Assembly: GCF_000403845.2 (NCBI RefSeq)
Contig: NZ_KE159567.1
Coordinates: 938,911-1,002,910, forward strand
DNA from: Eubacterium sp. 14-2
Lineage (GTDB): Bacteria; Bacillota; Clostridia; Lachnospirales; Lachnospiraceae
Direction: 5' to 3'
DNA: 64,000 bases
The notes under the pieces are model-generated. The model had not been told where the DNA came from. It did no database searches and saw only the letters and a program-made list of their open reading frames with translations. This document shows positions 40,800-49,242 of this stretch, one piece after another. The translations under genes and the position numbers were made by a program. Every line of letters starts with the position of its first letter. Within the stretch, counting starts at the first letter, position 1.

Positions 40800-41522
40800 A
40801 TAGGTTTACAACCAAATAATTTCAGGCTTGAACCAACAACAGTCTGGTCGTTTCCAGACAGAGGCAGTTGGGTAACGCATTCAGGGAAGTATCGAGGAAA
40901 CTGGTCACCATATGTACCAGGAAATCTGATACTTCGTTATTCTAATCCTGGTGATTGGGTCTTAGATCAATTTATGGGTAGTGGAACAACCTTAGTTGAG
41001 GCAAAGCTACTTAATCGTCATGCGGTAGGTGTCGACATCAATCCGCAATCTGTTTTAATTTCTGAAACGAATTTACAATTCCAATGTGAAACAAATTCAA
41101 AAATCTTTACACGAAATGGAAATGCTACAGATTTGCATTTTATCAAAGATTGTCGTATTGACTTTATTTGTACACATCCGCCATATGCCAATATCATCAA
41201 ATATAGTAAAGGAATAGAAGGGGACATTTCTTTGTTAGGTGTGGAAGCATTTTTAGATGAGATGCAGAAGGTTGCAAATGAAGCATATCGTGTTTTGAAA
41301 AAAGGAAAAATGTGTGCAGTAATGATTGGGGATGTAAGAAAATGTGGAAAGGTCATTCCATTAGGATTTCGTATGATGGAATGCTTTTTACAGGCAGGAT
41401 TTGCGAATAAAGAAATTATAATTAAAGAGCAGCATAATTGTCGTTCTACTGATTATTGGGAAAAACAGAACAATAATTTTCTGATTCTTGCACATGAGTA
41501 TATATTTGTATTTCAGAAGTAA
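40800..41522 (+). CDS. DNA methyltransferase with abnormal start (N4/N6 type)
   Basis: 240 codons are open from base 40800. The SAM-binding segment DQFMGSGTTLVEAKLL and catalytic THPPYANIIKY (an S/T-x-P-P-Y-like motif, as in N4-cytosine enzymes) are intact. The region before them (RLEPTTVWSFPDRGSW, then SGKYRGNWSPY) matches the family N-terminus, so the true start is near 40793-40800. But the ATG at 40793 is in another frame and ends after eight codons, and the first in-frame ATG (40974) would remove part of the enzyme. Either ATA at 40800 (8 bases from AAGGAGG) is used, or a single base is extra around 40798. Target sequence unknown. Confidence 0.75.
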   Translation: MGLQPNNFRLEPTTVWSFPDRGSWVTHSGKYRGNWSPYVPGNLILRYSNPGDWVLDQFMGSGTTLVEAKLLNRHAVGVDINPQSVLISETNLQFQCETNSKIFTRNGNATDLHFIKDCRIDFICTHPPYANIIKYSKGIEGDISLLGVEAFLDEMQKVANEAYRVLKKGKMCAVMIGDVRKCGKVIPLGFRMMECFLQAGFANKEIIIKEQHNCRSTDYWEKQNNNFLILAHEYIFVFQK

Positions 41523-41579: not shown

Positions 41580-41629
41580 AAATATGCGAGAGATTGTCCT
41601 TTTGTGGACATAGAGAAGAGGAATCATCA

Positions 41630-42463
41630 ATGAGTAATTCGAGTGTTGCTCCATTTGTGAAATGGGCTGGCGGTAAGCGTCAGTTGATTCCACAGATAAA
41701 GGAGAAAATGCCTGTAAAATATAATAATTATTATGAGCCATTTGTGGGTGGCGGTGCAGTTACATTTGAATTGTTACCTGCAAATGCTCTCATAAATGAT
41801 ATTAACAAAGCACTAATAAATGCATACAAGAAGATATGTGGTGAGCCGGAAGCATTTCTGAAAGCAGTAAATAAACTTGATGCGGAAATGTGGGAGGATG
41901 GTAAAGAATATTATTATTCTCTCAGAGAACATTACAATGACAAGCTGATGAAAGCGGAGTATGATGTGGAATTAGCTGCATTGTTTGTGTTTATAAATAA
42001 GCATTGTTTTAACGGCTTGTATCGGGTAAATGGTAAGGGCCTTTTCAATGTTCCGTACAACAATAGTCGTAGGGCTTCGGTTGATGAAGAGGTTATTATG
42101 GCTACTTCAAAGTACTTGCAGGGAGTAATCATTATAGATGGTGATTTTGAACTGGCATGTAAGGATGCAAAGAAGGGCGATTTTGTATTTATAGACAGCC
42201 CGTATGCACCATTGAATCCTACTTCTTTTGAGTCATACACAAAAGAGGGATTTGACATAGAAAGCCATAAGCGACTGGCAAATCTTTTCGATGAATTAAC
42301 AGCCAGAGGTTGCTACTGTATGCTCACAAACCATAATACAGACTTGATAAATGAGCTGTATGGTAACAAAGGCTATAAAATAGATGTTGTAAGTGTAAAG
42401 CGTATGATTAATTCAGATGCATCTAACAGAGTTGGCAAAGAAGTAATTATATGCAATTATTAG
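41630..42463 (+). CDS. dpnM: Dam-type adenine methyltransferase of DpnII system
   Basis: 277 residues from ATG 41630; the earlier in-frame ATG at 41594 lies close to the -10 box. D12-class enzyme: the N-terminal SAM pocket FVKWAGGKRQLIPQI, then the catalytic DSPYAPLNPTSFESY (DSPY in place of the commoner DPPY, a change of one Pro). It should methylate the adenine in GATC and protect the host from the nuclease encoded downstream. AT-rich codons differ from the flanking housekeeping genes. Confidence 0.93.
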   Translation: MSNSSVAPFVKWAGGKRQLIPQIKEKMPVKYNNYYEPFVGGGAVTFELLPANALINDINKALINAYKKICGEPEAFLKAVNKLDAEMWEDGKEYYYSLREHYNDKLMKAEYDVELAALFVFINKHCFNGLYRVNGKGLFNVPYNNSRRASVDEEVIMATSKYLQGVIIIDGDFELACKDAKKGDFVFIDSPYAPLNPTSFESYTKEGFDIESHKRLANLFDELTARGCYCMLTNHNTDLINELYGNKGYKIDVVSVKRMINSDASNRVGKEVIICNY

Positions 42464-42522
42464 AACTTATGTGTAAGAAGGACTACTCTTTTACATGGAG
42501 ATAAAAAGAAGGAAGGAGTTTT

Positions 42523-42750
42523 ATGCCACATTTTGAAATGGCAGAGTATCCAGTGTGCGGAAAAATAGCATATGGAAGAACTGAAATTGAAGATGCATTT
42601 GGTTTTTGTTATGATGGGACAATGCCACAATCATAGTGTAGGAAGTGTAGAAAATTAGGAAGTAGTTGTGGATACACAGATTGTCTACATTGGAGAGAGG
42701 ATTATCATCGTTGTTATTATTCTGTAAAGTGTCCAATTAATGATGACTAA
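42523..42750 (+). pseudogene. Small Cys-rich protein gene split by in-frame TAG
   Basis: 76 codons including the final stop, beginning ATG after GAAGGAG and ending TAA at 42748. An in-frame TAG at 42634-42636 halves it: 37 residues on each side. The second half is rich in Cys pairs (CRKCRKLGSSCGYTDC, then HRCYYSVKC), zinc-ribbon-like. It sits between the two methyltransferase genes of the DpnII operon. Read-through, a recent nonsense mutation or two small genes are possible; mutation is the simplest. Confidence 0.6.
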
Positions 42751-42843
42751 TTTGTTTGAATATCTGCGTTATATGATTTGTGTTAGTTAGAGACTTGCTA
42801 TATAGTGCAGATAACGGAATGTTTGGCATGGAGACTAGAAGTA

Positions 42844-43647
42844 ATGGAGAACTTATTTACAAAAAAAGTGCCATTATTTTTCGAGATTGAAGAATCGCAG
42901 TTAATATTAGGCGATTCCTTTAAAATTCTAACAAAAATGAAACTGGAATCTGTTGATATGGTATTTGCAGATCCGCCTTATTTTTTAAGTAATGACGGCA
43001 TTACCTGTCAGGGTGGAAAGATGGTTTCAGTAAATAAAGGCTCATGGGATAAACTTTCTGAAAGTGGAACCAGCGTCGAAGAAAAACATAAGTTTAATAG
43101 AAAGTGGATTAAGTTATGTAAGAAAGTACTAAAGCCGAATGGCACGATTTGGATATCAGGAACACTACACAATATATATTCGATTGGCATGGCATTGGAG
43201 CAGGAAGGCTTCAAGATAATCAATAACATAACATGGCAGAAAACAAATCCACCACCAAACTTATCATGTCGATGCTTCACACATTCTACGGAAACCATTT
43301 TATGGGCTAAGAAGAATGATAAGAAGTCTCGGCATTTTTTTGCTTATCAGAAAATGAAAGAAATGAATGGTGGAAAGCAGATGAAGGATGTGTGGGCAGG
43401 AGCACTGACGAAATCTTCGGAGAAAACAGAAGGTAAGCACCCTACACAGAAACCGGAATATTTGCTTGAAAAAATTGTACTGGCATCGACTGAGGAAGGA
43501 CAAGTTATCTTAGATCCTTTTTGTGGTTCAGGAACTACAGGAGTAGAGACGGTACGATTTGGACGGAAGTTTATTGGAATAGATGTAAGTGAAGAATACC
43601 TGGAGATATCCAGGAGAAGATTGGAGAAGGTAGCAAATGACAAATAG
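42844..43647 (+). CDS. dpnA: DpnA-type adenine methyltransferase
   Basis: 267 residues from ATG 42844, with GGAG ten bases upstream; the listed frame opens 13 codons earlier without a site. Catalytic DPPYFLSNDGITCQGG is close to the DpnA/M2.DpnII type, with the SAM motif DPFCGSGTTGVETVRFG at the C-terminal side (beta class order). DpnA enzymes methylate single-stranded GATC, protecting incoming plasmid. The stop overlaps the nuclease gene by 11 bases. Confidence 0.94.
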   Translation: MENLFTKKVPLFFEIEESQLILGDSFKILTKMKLESVDMVFADPPYFLSNDGITCQGGKMVSVNKGSWDKLSESGTSVEEKHKFNRKWIKLCKKVLKPNGTIWISGTLHNIYSIGMALEQEGFKIINNITWQKTNPPPNLSCRCFTHSTETILWAKKNDKKSRHFFAYQKMKEMNGGKQMKDVWAGALTKSSEKTEGKHPTQKPEYLLEKIVLASTEEGQVILDPFCGSGTTGVETVRFGRKFIGIDVSEEYLEISRRRLEKVANDK

Positions 43648-44500
43648 AAATTTTGATGAATGGTTGAGTAGGTTCAGACCGAGTATATCAAGTTATGATT
43701 ACTATATTGATTTTGAAAAGGTCGTAAGAAATGTAGATGAAATCAAGGTGGAATTAAACATCTTAAATTCCTTGATTAGTTCAAAAAATATTGAAGAAGA
43801 TTTTGAGAAGATAGTGACAAAGTATCCGGAAACATTGCAATGCGTTCCGTTACTTCTTGCGGTGAGAAGTAATGAAATATATGCACAGGATGAAGAAGGT
43901 GCGTTCTTATATAATTTCAAGCAGATGAATTACAGTGTGGAGCAGTACAAGGTATTTATGCGTAAGACCGGATTATTTGATATGATTGCAAATCATTTGG
44001 TAAACAATCTTGTGGATTATGCTTTGGGTATTGAAACTGGATTGGACTCTAATGGTCGTAAGAATCGTGGCGGTCACCAAATGGAGGATTTAGTTGAAAA
44101 GTATATTGTTACAGCAGGGTTTAAAAAGGATGTAAATTACTTCAAAGAAATGTATCTTAAGGACATTGAAGAGAAGTGGAACGTTGATTTATCTGCACTT
44201 TCTAATCAGGGTAAGGCTGCTAAGAGATTTGATTTTGTAATCAGGACGGATAAGATGATTTATGGTATAGAGACAAACTTTTATGGCGGTGGTGGCTCAA
44301 AACTGAATGAAACCGCAAGGAGTTATAAAATGCTTTCACAAGAGGCAGATACAATAGAAGGATTTACATTTGTATGGTTTACAGATGGAATTGGATGGAA
44401 GAGTGCAAGAGGTAATCTGAGGGAGACGTTTGAGGTCATGGATACGATTTACAGTATCGATGATATGGAGAATGGGGTTATGAAGGTAATATTTGATTAG
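43637..44500 (+). CDS. dpnB: DpnII-family type II restriction endonuclease (GATC)
   Basis: 287 residues. Matches the DpnII/MboI family along its length: FDEWLSRFRPSISSYDYY, the KNRGGHQMEDLVEKY segment, and the likely active-site area KRFDFVIRTDK followed by YGIETNFYGGGGSKLNE (Asp ... Glu-x-Asn as a PD-(D/E)xK variant). It cuts unmethylated GATC. Intact, in one operon with two protecting methyltransferases. Confidence 0.94.
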   Translation: MTNRNFDEWLSRFRPSISSYDYYIDFEKVVRNVDEIKVELNILNSLISSKNIEEDFEKIVTKYPETLQCVPLLLAVRSNEIYAQDEEGAFLYNFKQMNYSVEQYKVFMRKTGLFDMIANHLVNNLVDYALGIETGLDSNGRKNRGGHQMEDLVEKYIVTAGFKKDVNYFKEMYLKDIEEKWNVDLSALSNQGKAAKRFDFVIRTDKMIYGIETNFYGGGGSKLNETARSYKMLSQEADTIEGFTFVWFTDGIGWKSARGNLRETFEVMDTIYSIDDMENGVMKVIFD

Positions 44501-44514
44501 GAGGAACTGAACGA

Positions 44515-45987
44515 ATGAGGAACTATAGTTATAAGACACTTGATATTTTAGAATTGTATGTTAATCCCGACAATTATAGGTATGTTGAAGAAGTACAGGA
44601 TGAAGTTAGTGCAATAATTGCTATGTTTAAAGTTAATGTCGGAGATTCAAGAAAAGAAATGTTAAATTTAGCAAATGACATTATTGCAGATGGTTTGAAT
44701 CCATTTGAAATGCCAATAGTATGTTTTGATGATGAAATAGGAAAATACGTTGTATATGACGGTAATCGACGTATTACATGTTTGAAATTGATGACACAAT
44801 ATAAGGGGAATGCTGATGTGTTAGCAGAGCTTCCTTATGTGGCAGAAATATATAAACTCCAATATAATGGTGATAGTTCGATTCAGTGTGTTGTGTATAA
44901 TGAGGCGGATGATGCAATTCACTTTTTAAATAAGATACATAATGATGTCAACAATGGGATTGGAAGAAAACAATGGGATTCTCAAGCTAAAATGAAGGCT
45001 AATGCAGCATATGGTAACAAAACCAAATCATATGCAATAGTAGAATTTTTGAAAACGAATCAAAATACAAGTACAGAACTTCTGGAAAAAATGAAGATGA
45101 ATAGATGGATATCAAAACTGGAGCGAGTAGTCAGTTTTTCTTTGTTTAAAGGCGTGTACAATATACAGTTTGATAATAATAGTAATATGAGCTATTTGGA
45201 TACAGAGGAACAAGTTTTGAAAATGCTTTCGAAACTTGTAGATGATATTATAACGAATACTGCTACAGGTAATTTCAGATTTAAGTCAGATTTTCAAGGC
45301 TATGTTGATAATCTTCCGAATGAATACAAAACACAAGTAAAAAAGAAGAAGGATAATAAGTCTGAAAATAGTTCTAATAATGCAAATAACGATTCGGAAG
45401 ACAAGTCATCAAATGGAACACAAAATAGTAATGGTGCAGAAAATGGAACAAGCGGTAATAAGGATGACTCAGAAAAGAATAACCAAAAGAAAGAGGATAA
45501 TGATACTGGAGTAGGTAGGCCAAAGAATATTCCACGCAAACATGCTGAAACAAAAGAAGCTCTAGTTTTATGTAAGAATTATGACTATAGTGAGTATAAG
45601 TGTTTAAACGAAAAAGGCAAGGAAATGTTGATTGAATTAGAGAGCTTAAATATAAAAGAATATCCAGTAGCTGCAGTGGCTTTATGTAGATGCCTATTAG
45701 AGTATACTTTGAAATTATGGTTGGATGAACAAGGAGGGGATTTTGAAAGTGGGAAATTACCGACTTGTTACAATGGCTGTGTAAATTTGTTGCGCTCGAA
45801 GAATATTATTGATAATAAAGAACATAGTGTGTTAAATACGTTAGTTAATAAAGAGAATTATATAAAGTTGTTGAACACATGGATGCATGCAGACACAGAT
45901 GCATGTGTTTCTGAAACACCGATGGTAAGTGGATGGAAAAATGTTCGCCTATTGGTAGAAAAATATATAGAAACACATAAGAATTGA
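44515..45987 (+). CDS. ParB-like N-terminal domain protein with novel C-terminus
   Basis: 490 residues, starting 14 bases after the DpnII gene (GGAGG ahead of the ATG). Residues 1-95 look like a ParB/sulfiredoxin-fold domain: ELYVNPDNYRY and the box KYVVYDGNRRITCLKLM (DGNRR 82-86). A helical middle (130-270) ends in a 60-residue Asn/Ser/Lys linker (275-335). The last 150 residues form a separate helical domain with R392-x3-E396 and N454-x3-H458, a pattern reminiscent of HEPN-like domains, though this is only a resemblance. No HNH domain as in SspE was found. Function unknown; the association with a radical SAM gene and a DpnII locus suggests DNA-targeted defence. Confidence 0.75.
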   Translation: MRNYSYKTLDILELYVNPDNYRYVEEVQDEVSAIIAMFKVNVGDSRKEMLNLANDIIADGLNPFEMPIVCFDDEIGKYVVYDGNRRITCLKLMTQYKGNADVLAELPYVAEIYKLQYNGDSSIQCVVYNEADDAIHFLNKIHNDVNNGIGRKQWDSQAKMKANAAYGNKTKSYAIVEFLKTNQNTSTELLEKMKMNRWISKLERVVSFSLFKGVYNIQFDNNSNMSYLDTEEQVLKMLSKLVDDIITNTATGNFRFKSDFQGYVDNLPNEYKTQVKKKKDNKSENSSNNANNDSEDKSSNGTQNSNGAENGTSGNKDDSEKNNQKKEDNDTGVGRPKNIPRKHAETKEALVLCKNYDYSEYKCLNEKGKEMLIELESLNIKEYPVAAVALCRCLLEYTLKLWLDEQGGDFESGKLPTCYNGCVNLLRSKNIIDNKEHSVLNTLVNKENYIKLLNTWMHADTDACVSETPMVSGWKNVRLLVEKYIETHKN

Positions 45988-45994
45988 GATAAAG

Positions 45995-47407
45995 ATGAAA
46001 ATATTATTGGTTGAAGCCGATTACAAAAACAAATATCCACCTCTAGGATTGATGAAAATTAGTGCATATCACAAAGAGATTGGTGATGAAGTTGTTTTTG
46101 TAAAAGGAAAAGATAAAGATTTAAAAAATCAAAAGTGGGATAGAATCTACGTTACTACACTATTTACATTTTATTGGAAAAAGACAGTTGATACTATAAA
46201 ATACTATTACAACTCGGTGAAAAATCCAGGTGATTTGCATGTTGGTGGTATTATGGCAACATTGCTAGAACATGATTTAAGAGCTGAAAAAGGAATACAG
46301 GGAATAACCATAAGAAAAGGATTGCTTAATCATATAAATATGTTAGGGAATGAAACGGTTCCAGTGGATCTTATGATACCTGATTATAGTATAATTGATA
46401 AAGAGGGTAACGAATATTTGGATTACGAATATGAAGTACAAAATGCATATTTGGCTTCGACTACAAAAGGCTGTATTAGAAGATGTAAATTTTGTGCGGT
46501 AAGTACACTTGAATCTACGTATTGTGATTATATTGACATTAGAGGCCAAATAAAAGAAGTTAAGAGGTTGTATGGAGAAAAACGCAACTTGATGTTAATG
46601 GATAATAATATTTTGGCTTCGCCAAAATTAGAACAAATTGTAGACGATTTGGTCGAATTAGGTTTTGGAAGAGGAAACCAAAGTTATGAAAAACAATCTG
46701 GTAAGCGTAAGTTGAAACAGAACAGATATGTTGATTTTAATCAAGGGACAGATGCCCGTTTGCTGACAGAAGAAACAATTACACAACTGGCAAGATTAGA
46801 AGTGAAACCATTGCGAATTGCGTTTGATCATTCAGATGAAGAAAATGTGAGGATATATAAAGAAGCGCAGTGGCTAGCTGCAAGGCATGGATTTAAGAAT
46901 TTGTCAAATTATGTGTTGTTTAATTTTAAGGATACACCACAAGAATTATATTATCGACTAAAGATAAATATTGAATTAAATAAAGCATTTAAGAAGGAAA
47001 AATTGGATACAAGCATATGGTCATTTCCAATGAAATATATGCCTTTTTCAGGAGAGCATCGTATGGACAGAAAATACATAGGAGAGTATTGGAATGCAAA
47101 AATGTTAAGAGGGGTACAATGTATACTGAATGCAACACATGCAGTAGTGGGACCTAAAGAAGAGTTTTTCAATCATGCATTTGGAAGTACATATGAGGAA
47201 TTTGAAGAGTTGATATATATGCCAGAGCTATTTATTACTAAGAGAAAAGATAATGCGGATAAAATTGAGCAGTGGAGGCACATATACAGAAACTTAAATG
47301 ATGCAGAAAAACAACAGTTTATTGAACTAATAAAAAACAATAGTTTTCCGGATGTTTATATTGCAAATGAGGAGATACGGCTATTATATAGTTGGTATAT
47401 AAAGTAG
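45995..47407 (+). CDS. Radical SAM protein with B12-binding-like N-terminus
   Basis: 470 residues, starting seven bases after the ParB-like gene. The N-terminal 100 residues (ILLVEADYKNKYPPLGLMKI, then ISAYHKEIGDEVVF and LHVGGIMATLL) resemble a B12-binding fold, but the cobalamin motif DxHxxG is not seen. The radical SAM triad is C160-x3-C164-x2-C167 (GCIRRCKFC), followed by LMLMDNNILASP and a typical barrel. C-terminal 150 residues are not recognised. Substrate unknown; as the last intact gene of the DpnII operon it could modify nucleic acid or a nucleotide. No PFAM-specific viperin signature was noticed. Confidence 0.75.
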   Translation: MKILLVEADYKNKYPPLGLMKISAYHKEIGDEVVFVKGKDKDLKNQKWDRIYVTTLFTFYWKKTVDTIKYYYNSVKNPGDLHVGGIMATLLEHDLRAEKGIQGITIRKGLLNHINMLGNETVPVDLMIPDYSIIDKEGNEYLDYEYEVQNAYLASTTKGCIRRCKFCAVSTLESTYCDYIDIRGQIKEVKRLYGEKRNLMLMDNNILASPKLEQIVDDLVELGFGRGNQSYEKQSGKRKLKQNRYVDFNQGTDARLLTEETITQLARLEVKPLRIAFDHSDEENVRIYKEAQWLAARHGFKNLSNYVLFNFKDTPQELYYRLKINIELNKAFKKEKLDTSIWSFPMKYMPFSGEHRMDRKYIGEYWNAKMLRGVQCILNATHAVVGPKEEFFNHAFGSTYEEFEELIYMPELFITKRKDNADKIEQWRHIYRNLNDAEKQQFIELIKNNSFPDVYIANEEIRLLYSWYIK

Positions 47408-47549: not shown

Positions 47550-48805
47550 TTGGATTTAAACTTAGAGCAGACATCACAAATTAAAGAAGAGATTAAAAGT
47601 TACAGAAAGAATATTAAAGAGGAAGATGAAGCCAGGGGCAGTATTGTGAAGCTGCAGGAAAAAATAAAGAAAGAGTGGGAAGCATTGCTGGATAAAGATT
47701 ACGGTGAATTGTCAGACAGCAAATGCCCCTTATGTGGGCATCCATATGGAAACAAGTCAGAAGTAATACAGAAATTGGATTCATATCGGCAGGTGATTGA
47801 AAACGGCAAGGGAGATTTCCAGAAGTTGATAGTTCAGAAAATGAATGATTTGAAAATAATCTATGATTCATACTGCAAGGAATGAATTGAAGAGTATCTG
47901 AAACAGAATGAGTGCTATTTAAATGATGTTTGTCGGCAAATATATAAGAATTGGAATCTGGTGATGAGCGATCACAAGGAGTTTTGCGAAAGCGGAAGAA
48001 ATTATGCCATACCAAAAGAGTATGTGATTGGAAAAGATGCGTTTGACCAAGCAGATGAGATTGCGAATGGATTTATAAGGGTGCTGGAACAAAATAAATC
48101 TGAATTACCAGATGAATATTATAGTAATAAAGAAAAATATCAGTATAAAAATGTCTTTACTTTAAATTATAATAATCAACAAGATAAGGTGCAGTATATT
48201 TCCAAAGAAGATGAACGTGAAAAAAATTATATATTGAGCAGGAGTATTATGGAAGTAAGAGAAAAACATTATCAGATCAGGAAGATGAACTGAAGAAGTT
48301 ATGTAAAAGGGCAAGTAGAATTGCCGGAACGGAAAAGAATCTGAAGGAATTGAAAAATAAGGTGAAAAATGACTTAGGCATGTATAGAGAAAAACTGGTA
48401 AATCAACTAAAGATTCCTTTTTATCTGTATGCAGGAAGGATTTTGCAAAATTATCAAGGTAGCTTGGGCATATGGATGAATATTATTGGTGGAGAGAGGA
48501 TTCGTTTTGAGGCAGAAGGAAGATAGGAACATGATATATTATATACCTTGAGTTCCGGACAATTATCCGCTGTGTCTATTTCTATTGCTCTTACATTAAA
48601 TAAAATATATGCACAAGACAATATAAGATGTGTAGTTATTGATGAACCGATTCAGACTATGGACGAACTGAATGTTGTATCCTTTTGTGAAGTTTTAAGG
48701 ACAGATTTTAAAGAATACCAGTTTATTTTGTCTACGCATGAAGAGGATTTTCAGACTATATTCGATATAAGTTTGAAAAATATGGTCTGCAAAACCGATC
48801 CTTAG
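47550..48805 (+). pseudogene. Decayed SMC/Rad50-like ATPase
   Basis: Three lesions split one gene: TGA at 47883-47885, a frameshift near 48276, and TAG at 48524-48526. The N-terminal part with Walker A is missing altogether. What remains is a coiled coil with a zinc hook (CPLCGHPYGN), and a C-terminal ATPase half with the signature LSSGQLSAVSISIAL and Walker B VVIDEPIQTMD. Such hook ATPases occur in DNA repair and defence. The gene is not functional here. Confidence 0.75.
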
Positions 48806-48854
48806 ATGTTCAGGAGCTGTAAAGGAATTTTGATGAGGAAAGAAGGTGTAGGAT

Positions 48855-49073
48855 TTGAAGAGAGAAGAATTATCTGATGAGACAGTTATCAGGCGTGCGA
48901 ATGCTGCAGTAAGAATTGAGTTAGAGAAGAACAGAGCATTGGGAATCTCAACGGTTATATATGACAGAAAAAGCCAAATCATATATCGGGAAAATGAGGA
49001 TGGAATCCGAACGGAAGTAGGAAAAAGGATGAGAAAGGAGCGTTACGGTGAACGAGTTTCAAAAGAATCCTGA
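48855..49073 (+). CDS. Small protein upstream of zeta toxin, antitoxin-like
   Basis: 72 residues, highly charged helix (EELSDETVIRRANAAVRIEL) with a C-terminal beta tail. It overlaps the zeta-toxin fragment by 26 bases. Small genes in this place are often the antidote for zeta-like kinases, so it may be a leftover antitoxin. The start codon TTG 48855 has a GGAG-like site close by. Family not recognised. Confidence 0.5.
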   Translation: MKREELSDETVIRRANAAVRIELEKNRALGISTVIYDRKSQIIYRENEDGIRTEVGKRMRKERYGERVSKES

Positions 49074-49224
49074 GATCGTTGTTTTCGCAGGTCCGAATGG
49101 TTCTGGTAAAAGTACGTTTACACAGTTGCTAAAACCTCCAATAGACTATATAAATGCAGATGAAATTAAGAAATATCTTCGTGAGCAGGAGCAGTGTGAT
49201 AAAATTCAGATAGCACAGCTTTAG
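49048..49224 (+). pseudogene. Truncated zeta-toxin-like kinase
   Basis: 58 codons from a GTG. The N-terminus EIVVFAGPNGSGKSTFTQLL has the P-loop of zeta toxins/PezT kinases, followed by INADEIKKYL. Full-length relatives exceed 180 residues. From about 49213 the frame enters sequence related to the histidine kinase gene downstream and stops at TAG 49222, so a deletion fused the two. Confidence 0.75.
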
Positions 49225-49242
49225 CAACAGTACACCTGTTAT
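49213..49242 (+). repeat. 30-base remnant of a second histidine kinase gene
   Basis: 25 of 30 bases match 49959-49988 inside the GHKL kinase (the IAQLQQQYAYY coil). It marks the right edge of the island. Confidence 0.7.

Follow-up and report, generated by a model that had tools for sequence, protein, structure and literature searches.

A 64,000-nucleotide stretch of the genome of Eubacterium sp. 14-2 (assembly GCF_000403845.2, contig NZ_KE159567.1, positions 938,911 to 1,002,910 of the forward strand) is referred to here as the window, and all coordinates are those of this window. Directly downstream of a DpnII restriction locus it carries two genes, encoding a 490-amino-acid (aa) ParB-like protein and a 470-aa radical S-adenosylmethionine (SAM) enzyme. 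The order on the + strand is Dam/DpnM methyltransferase, DpnA-like methylase, DpnII endonuclease, the 490-aa protein and the 470-aa radical SAM protein, with 14 bases between the DpnII gene and the first gene of the pair and 7 bases between the two genes of the pair. A preliminary description of this DNA had given these distances, coordinates and residues correctly, and the two genes are confirmed to be real, intact and conserved. Since both proteins have many relatives, the arrangement is not due to chance. The first protein belongs to the PADLOC family PD-Lambda-5_A and is called A below; the division of PD-lambda-5 into A and its methyltransferase partner B is PADLOC's. The features of the locus are as follows, the pair first.

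44515..45987, + strand: PD-lambda-5_A-type protein, 490 aa (ParB-NTPase fold, linker and HEPN-like domain); open reading frame, PADLOC PDLC03998 (E = 3.9e-60), predicted structure
44527..44964, + strand: ParB-CTPase-fold part of A, residues 5-150
44758..44772, + strand: DGNRR box of A, residues 82-86, P-motif-like; sequence and conservation
45346..45555, + strand: disordered Asn/Lys/Ser-rich linker of A, residues 278-347; predicted local distance difference test (pLDDT) score below 50
45595..45984, + strand: HEPN-like helical domain of A, residues 361-490, with R392, E396, N454 and H458
45995..47407, + strand: radical SAM enzyme, 470 aa, with B12-binding-like N-terminal domain, standing where PD-lambda-5 has its B partner; open reading frame, PF04055, model
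46472..46495, + strand: CxxxCxxC of the radical SAM enzyme, residues 160-167, [4Fe-4S]/SAM motif; 33 of 33 aligned sequences
43637..44500, + strand: DpnII restriction endonuclease; PF04556 (E = 4.1e-111)
42805..43647, + strand: DpnA-like N6/N4 DNA methyltransferase; PF01555 (E = 1.6e-60)
41594..42463, + strand: DpnM-like Dam methyltransferase, not of PD-lambda-5_B type; TIGR00571 (E = 2.5e-79)
40974..41522, + strand: further N6/N4 DNA methyltransferase, the frame open 5' of the listed ATG; PF01555 (E = 2.3e-17)

The A protein matches the PD-Lambda-5_A model PDLC03998 with residues 3-483 of 490 on model positions 3-462 of 466, and a homologue search with it returned 87 matches. In its predicted structure (mean pLDDT 78.4) the N-terminal part shows both a ParB-CTPase fold and the P-motif arginine. 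The DGNRR box, read as ParB-like in the preliminary description, lies at residues 82-86, and N84, R85 and R86 are each kept in 42 of 43 aligned A proteins. The C-terminal part had been called an unrecognised helical domain; it is helical, and its best structural matches are mostly HEPN domains, with Z scores that are middling for a helical bundle. The residues singled out there, R392-x3-E396 and N454-x3-H458, are all present. R392 and H458 are each conserved in 41 of the 43 aligned proteins, 42 have E or D at position 396, and position 454 is variable (N in 13). A sequence search of the PDB with the A profile returned nothing useful.

The second protein matched PF04055 (E = 6.3e-7, 30.2 bits), barely over the cut-off of 29.5, and the motif C160-x3-C164-x2-C167 is present in all 33 aligned sequences, the window's included, so that its early identification as a radical SAM enzyme holds. 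Its cysteines are at positions 160, 164, 167, 177 and 376 only, and the invariant ones are C160, C164 and C167. The family is large, with at least 7820 relatives at E <= 1e-5 among 7998 candidates scored; among 61 genomes of relatives from genus to order it was found at E 1e-20 in three, the window's own counted. The predicted structure (mean pLDDT 93.9) places the fold of the modelled protein near AprD4, MgmA, MtaB and MiaB, and identity to B12-binding-type radical SAM enzymes is low (12-15%). The N-terminal domain has a B12-like fold in which DxHxxG is not visible, as the preliminary description had observed, and cobalamin binding is at most putative; some B12 enzymes also lack this motif. 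The methylthiotransferases MiaB, MtaB and RimO have a second cluster, for which their N-terminal parts carry three more conserved cysteines, and such extra cysteines are not present in the window enzyme. A PDB search with the radical SAM profile gave nothing at E 0.01, and no PADLOC model matched the protein at E 0.5.

Selection for phage resistance in E. coli led to the discovery of PD-lambda-5 (Vassallo et al. 2022, PMC9519451). In the excerpted text of that paper one domain is labelled methyltransferase, the system is called a compacted restriction-modification (RM) plus abortive infection (Abi) system, and anti-phage activity is shown for the E. coli system only (PMC9519451). Searches with PDLC03998 found A in 9 of 392 genomes of the order and in 6 of 398 genomes of the phylum, the window's genome included in each, and viral contigs searched with an A alignment gave 37 loci. 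Clustering at 90% identity reduced the 69 rows of the A set to 45, with A proteins of less than 300 aa or less than 100 bits excluded; broken or short copies, including L179, L193, L194 and L229, were left out, and L271-L278 were found later and stand outside the 45. The B profile was built from the methylases of ten genome loci, so matches there are by construction, and the viral loci are independent. Among the 45 non-redundant A proteins, B lies within 3 kb in 34, the radical SAM enzyme in 9 and both in none, two being at a contig edge. In the viral set, which was led by A, B stood near A in 34 of 37 loci and the radical SAM enzyme in one, two loci being cut; in one viral A-B locus there is one gene in between, and in one both genes are broken. 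With the PADLOC B model PDLC04018 run on whole genomes, the methylase beside A was matched in 10 of 10 A-B genomes (283-408 bits) and in 4 of 4 A-B virus records (369-407 bits). The best match anywhere in the six A-radical SAM genomes was 46 bits in the window's, 60 in G341, 46 in G332 and 48 in G899, with none in G970 and G861; the window's genome gives just 46 and 42 bits, the 42 on DpnM.

The nine A-radical SAM cases are the window, L005/L167/L176 (Chakrabartyella piscis), L006/L168, L008, L100, L103/L196, L237/L258, L240/L261 and L245/L266, with the gene order reversed in L008 and L266. The pair thus recurs in nine non-redundant loci, a co-occurrence that the preliminary description had proposed to check. 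In a quick tree of 43 A proteins the partner label needs two changes: eight of the nine radical SAM cases form one clade (SH-like approximate likelihood ratio test support 100) and L266 stands among the B cases on a long branch. Named phages and plasmids, checked later, added two further A-B pairs (L272, L273). B and the radical SAM enzyme are mutually exclusive beside A in this sample, a pattern resting on few events, and the data support that the radical SAM enzyme occupies the place of the A family's methylase. The replaced B methylase belongs to the D12-class adenine DNA methylases (PF02086; L175, E = 5.7e-22). The pairing, for which the preliminary description had no name, can be named as a variant of PD-lambda-5.

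The preliminary description had also tied the module to DpnII, and this tie is partial. Three of the nine loci (the window, L005 and L006) have a DpnII gene at most 3 kb from the pair, and the other six do not. Between the window and L005 the DpnII proteins are 36% identical and the radical SAM proteins 75%. Without DpnII, the pair stands downstream of an AAA/TOPRIM protein and a UvrD helicase in L008, and beside genes of the f16, f17 and GHKL families in L258 and L266. In the window the DpnII type II set is complete (PF04556, PF02086, PF01555), and the N6/N4 methyltransferase at 40974..41522 has 51% identity to the N6N4 methyltransferase adjoining the pair in L005. With our own B profile DpnM scored 47 bits, where two true B proteins reach about 445; its best PADLOC match was a type II methyltransferase model (4.1e-87), and the PD-Lambda-5_B model gave 3.8e-15 and 42 bits. 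Because of this weak match to PD-Lambda-5_B, automatic tools may miscall the window locus as a standard PD-lambda-5.

The surroundings of the locus are AT-rich, with a GC fraction of 0.33-0.36 across 40-50 kb of the window vs 0.42-0.51 in the remaining blocks. Between the two DpnII-locus methylases (42521-42750, + strand) there are short, stop-interrupted open pieces with CxxC-like cysteines. Downstream of the pair, 47550-48805 (+ strand) holds decayed pieces of an LmuB/SMC-like ATPase (PADLOC LmuB, E = 6.5e-22, open reading frame at 48548), perhaps a dead Lamassu-type defence gene, and 48850-49225 (+ strand) holds broken frames with a P-loop stretch GPNGSGKST that, by the look of the sequence alone, resemble a toxin-antitoxin remnant.

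For the wider radical SAM family, a scan of genome contigs with the radical SAM alignment supplied the best 80 of 213 relatives, and one locus set comprised matches above 150 bits only (105 loci); 140 rows (>150 bits, at least 300 aa) gave 99 non-redundant loci after 90% clustering. We assigned 88 of these to one of seven defence-like classes of our own definition and 11 to none. The classes comprise loci with PD-lambda-5_A (9 of 99), with DrmA and/or DrmB and hence DISARM-like (8, PADLOC on example L012), with an SNF2 helicase and ParB-like f1 genes (34), with PbeC, Pbe-like (6, PADLOC on L022), with two unknown genes f16-f17 (13), with a DndB/DpdB-like gene only (11) and with a GHKL ATPase only (7). 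Over the whole set, 64 of the 99 loci have a GHKL ATPase and 25 a DndB/DpdB-like gene within 8 kb. At least two f1 genes occur in 33 of the 34 SNF2 loci, and a small gene read as PD-(D/E)xK-like (conserved D, E and K) in 29. The f1 family is related to the window A protein (hhalign probability 94.8, E = 5.1e-08, 130 columns), and an f1 gene on a Rhizobium plasmid bears the NCBI name "ParB N-terminal domain-containing protein". The preliminary description would have been undone by a radical SAM protein from a known unrelated pathway; the family lies mostly in defence-like operons, and the proposal is not refuted on this count.

Methylase-like signals were found within 8 kb in nine of the 99 radical SAM loci; three are the DpnII loci and at least one is a false text match inside DrmA. 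Such a signal occurs in one of the 34 loci with SNF2 and ParB-like genes. A Pfam search of 55 leftover neighbours in the DISARM-like and Pbe-like loci gave no DNA methylase among the matches listed (25 of 60 families) and one tRNA methylase, and a regular DNA methylase neighbour is not supported in these two classes. Two DrmB loci without a radical SAM gene were found in 348 genomes, both near DNA methylases: L269 with a complete HsdM/HsdS/HsdR type I set and L270 with an N6_N4 methylase. A methylase apparently beside the radical SAM gene in L278 was rejected as a text-motif false alarm, with no match at E <0.7 to the four methylases compared.

Several gene arrangements around the family stood out. 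In L043, L233 and similar loci, genes for a ParB-like protein, a small PD-(D/E)xK-like protein, SNF2, another ParB-like protein and often a DndB/DpdB-like protein are followed by radical SAM and GHKL genes; this ParB-nuclease-SNF2-DndB-GHKL unit looks like a defence system and was matched to no named one. A four-gene cluster f16-f17-GHKL-radical SAM recurs in L259, L260, L262, L264, L265, L278 and others, the f16 and f17 examples having no significant Pfam or PADLOC match. On two phage-like contigs (L098:9893-12600 and L106:9962-12591) a second gene comes after the radical SAM gene; the one in L106 also encodes a radical SAM protein and gives a weak match to B12-binding, and the one in L098 is its homologue.

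We consider it probable, with some reserve, that the two genes form a PD-lambda-5-like system against phages, with a radical SAM writer of a self-mark substituted for the DNA methyltransferase and the ParB-HEPN protein as sensor and effector. The radical SAM enzyme would write its mark on nucleic acid in place of the methylase, most likely as a host DNA base modification made via the 5'-deoxyadenosyl radical. The ParB-type nucleoside triphosphate (NTP)-binding domain of A would recognise unmarked DNA or slide along it; on such DNA, A would release its HEPN-like domain, probably an RNase, leading to abortive infection. In the window the pair may ride with the DpnII restriction system as a second layer. 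The starting points of this reading, which the analysis shows, are the families and folds of the two proteins, the exchange of partner and the repeated presence of the enzyme in further defence-like operons; from them we infer the substrate, the chemistry, the mark and its site, the sensing or trigger step and the RNase activity, and anti-phage activity of the window pair is a prediction. A self-mark by a radical SAM enzyme combined with ParB scanning was put together from two sources: in the excerpted text of PMC12839542, the TGT-like DpdA and the ParB-like ATPase DpdB of the Dpd system insert a modified base into DNA, and in that of PMC12704722, ParB folds bind CTP, ATP or GTP. The suggestion of a new defence or nucleic-acid modification module in the preliminary description gains support from the A family and from the partner in the methylase place, and the module is no longer wholly unknown. 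Dnd-type phosphorothioation was rejected for the pair, as PADLOC gives the first gene no assignment but PD-Lambda-5_A and leaves the second without one.

More tentatively, and with the balance of our judgement slightly against it, the radical SAM family could be a shared writer of an unknown DNA modification, adopted by several unrelated restriction-type defence systems. In that case, which we hold to be possible to the same degree, the PD-lambda-5-like, DISARM-like, Pbe-like and ParB-nuclease-SNF2-DndB-GHKL systems would use a mark that replaces methylation or phosphorothioation there.

Several points weigh against a methylase-replacing self-mark writer. A modified base has yet to be seen, the substrates of radical SAM enzymes with this fold also include tRNA, proteins and small molecules, and three ordinary DNA methylases upstream in the window could serve A. 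The swap amounts to about two tree events, one on a long branch, and the ratio of 34 to 9 is not a frequency because five of the nine A-radical SAM loci (L008, L100, L258, L261 and L266) were supplied by radical-SAM-led searches. The A gene of L274 (4968-6302, on an Azospirillum argentinense plasmid) has no B or radical SAM gene in view, and L179 has a 198-aa A fragment that likewise lacks a partner; A is split by an insertion sequence in L275 and cut at record ends in L271 and L277. The HEPN assignment rests on the middling Z of a helical bundle. The canonical HEPN catalytic motif is R-x4-6-H, and it is absent from A, which has LN-x3-H at 453-458 instead and R392 on another helix. Among the 99 radical SAM loci only 40 have full 8-kb flanks on both sides, and the methylase screen relied on a small number of profiles and text motifs in place of a complete library. 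The two DrmB controls are few, and the methylases beside L269 and L270 may belong to separate systems.

Among the alternatives, an RNA substrate is the strongest, because MiaB and MtaB are fold neighbours of the radical SAM enzyme and A bears a HEPN-like domain: the enzyme would modify RNA, for example tRNA, either shielding host RNA from the HEPN-like RNase of A or targeting it for that RNase. We nevertheless regard it as unlikely, given that the enzyme replaced is a D12-class adenine DNA methylase, that many partner systems hold DNA helicases and a small putative PD-(D/E)xK-like protein, and that the extra N-terminal cysteines of methylthiotransferases are missing. Viperins make chain-terminating nucleotides, and the window enzyme might likewise make a small antiviral molecule or signal that A senses through its NTP pocket. 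This is rather less probable still, as it leaves unexplained both the replacement of a DNA methylase and the link to DISARM-, Pbe- and Dpd-like DNA-targeting genes.

A protein substrate, either A or its target, with no mark on nucleic acid, seems to us very improbable: the partners of the enzyme family are unrelated (ParB, DrmA/B, PbeA/C and GHKL), which makes a nucleic-acid substrate common to them more likely than a single protein one. Both the small-molecule and the protein alternatives lose weight because the radical SAM family works with many DNA-targeting systems. The least credible alternative in our view is that the two genes are cargo beside DpnII without a joint function. The AT-rich island and its degraded neighbours would fit cargo, but the pair recurs in six of nine loci where no DpnII lies within 3 kb, against three where one does, and catalytic positions are conserved in both proteins.

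Known DNA self-marks in bacterial immunity are methylation, phosphorothioation and 7-deazaguanine. Having a radical SAM enzyme where a methylase would stand predicts a further, chemically different one, and the prediction is directly testable by mass spectrometry because operons of several kinds carry the enzyme family, as do cultured strains, among them Chakrabartyella piscis BP5G with the pair of L005 and Novosphingobium aromaticivorans DSM 12444, where a family member lies on a plasmid. The layout of the little-explained PD-lambda-5 A protein also becomes readable, as a HEPN-like domain attached to an NTP domain of ParB type. Among the literature matches listed (titles and abstract starts, with few subscription journals and no bioRxiv) there was no radical SAM partner of PD-lambda-5, DISARM or Pbe. 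In the excerpted texts, "radical SAM" concerns DndC in PMC10853773, viperins in PMC12926258 and a Borg gene cluster in PMC11208441, and the word "radical" does not occur in the main text of PMC2292703, PMC8011034, PMC12704722 or PMC12839542. The system of the A protein is known, and its radical SAM partner would, judging by these literature matches and PADLOC, make the pair a new variant.

Compared with known systems, the window shares with PD-lambda-5 an A protein of the same PADLOC family, a gene pair and a mobile-element setting, but has a radical SAM enzyme instead of the B methyltransferase; because this defining methylase is missing, we class the pair as a PD-lambda-5-like variant and not as a member. 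Complete DpnM, DpnA and DpnII genes of a type II RM system lie directly upstream, although ParB-HEPN and radical SAM proteins are not components of such a system and occur without DpnII. From AprD4, MgmA, TsrM and MiaB/MtaB the window enzyme differs by its 12-15% identity, the lack of DxHxxG and a single invariant cysteine triad. Radical SAM enzymes take part in phage thymidine hypermodification, and the feature that the window enzyme would share with them is radical SAM chemistry on DNA bases. Unlike Dpd, the pair shows no DpdA-like enzyme and its chemistry would be that of radical SAM; like Dpd, it joins a ParB-superfamily NTPase to a candidate base-modifying enzyme, and in other loci a DpdB/DndB-like gene precedes the radical SAM gene.

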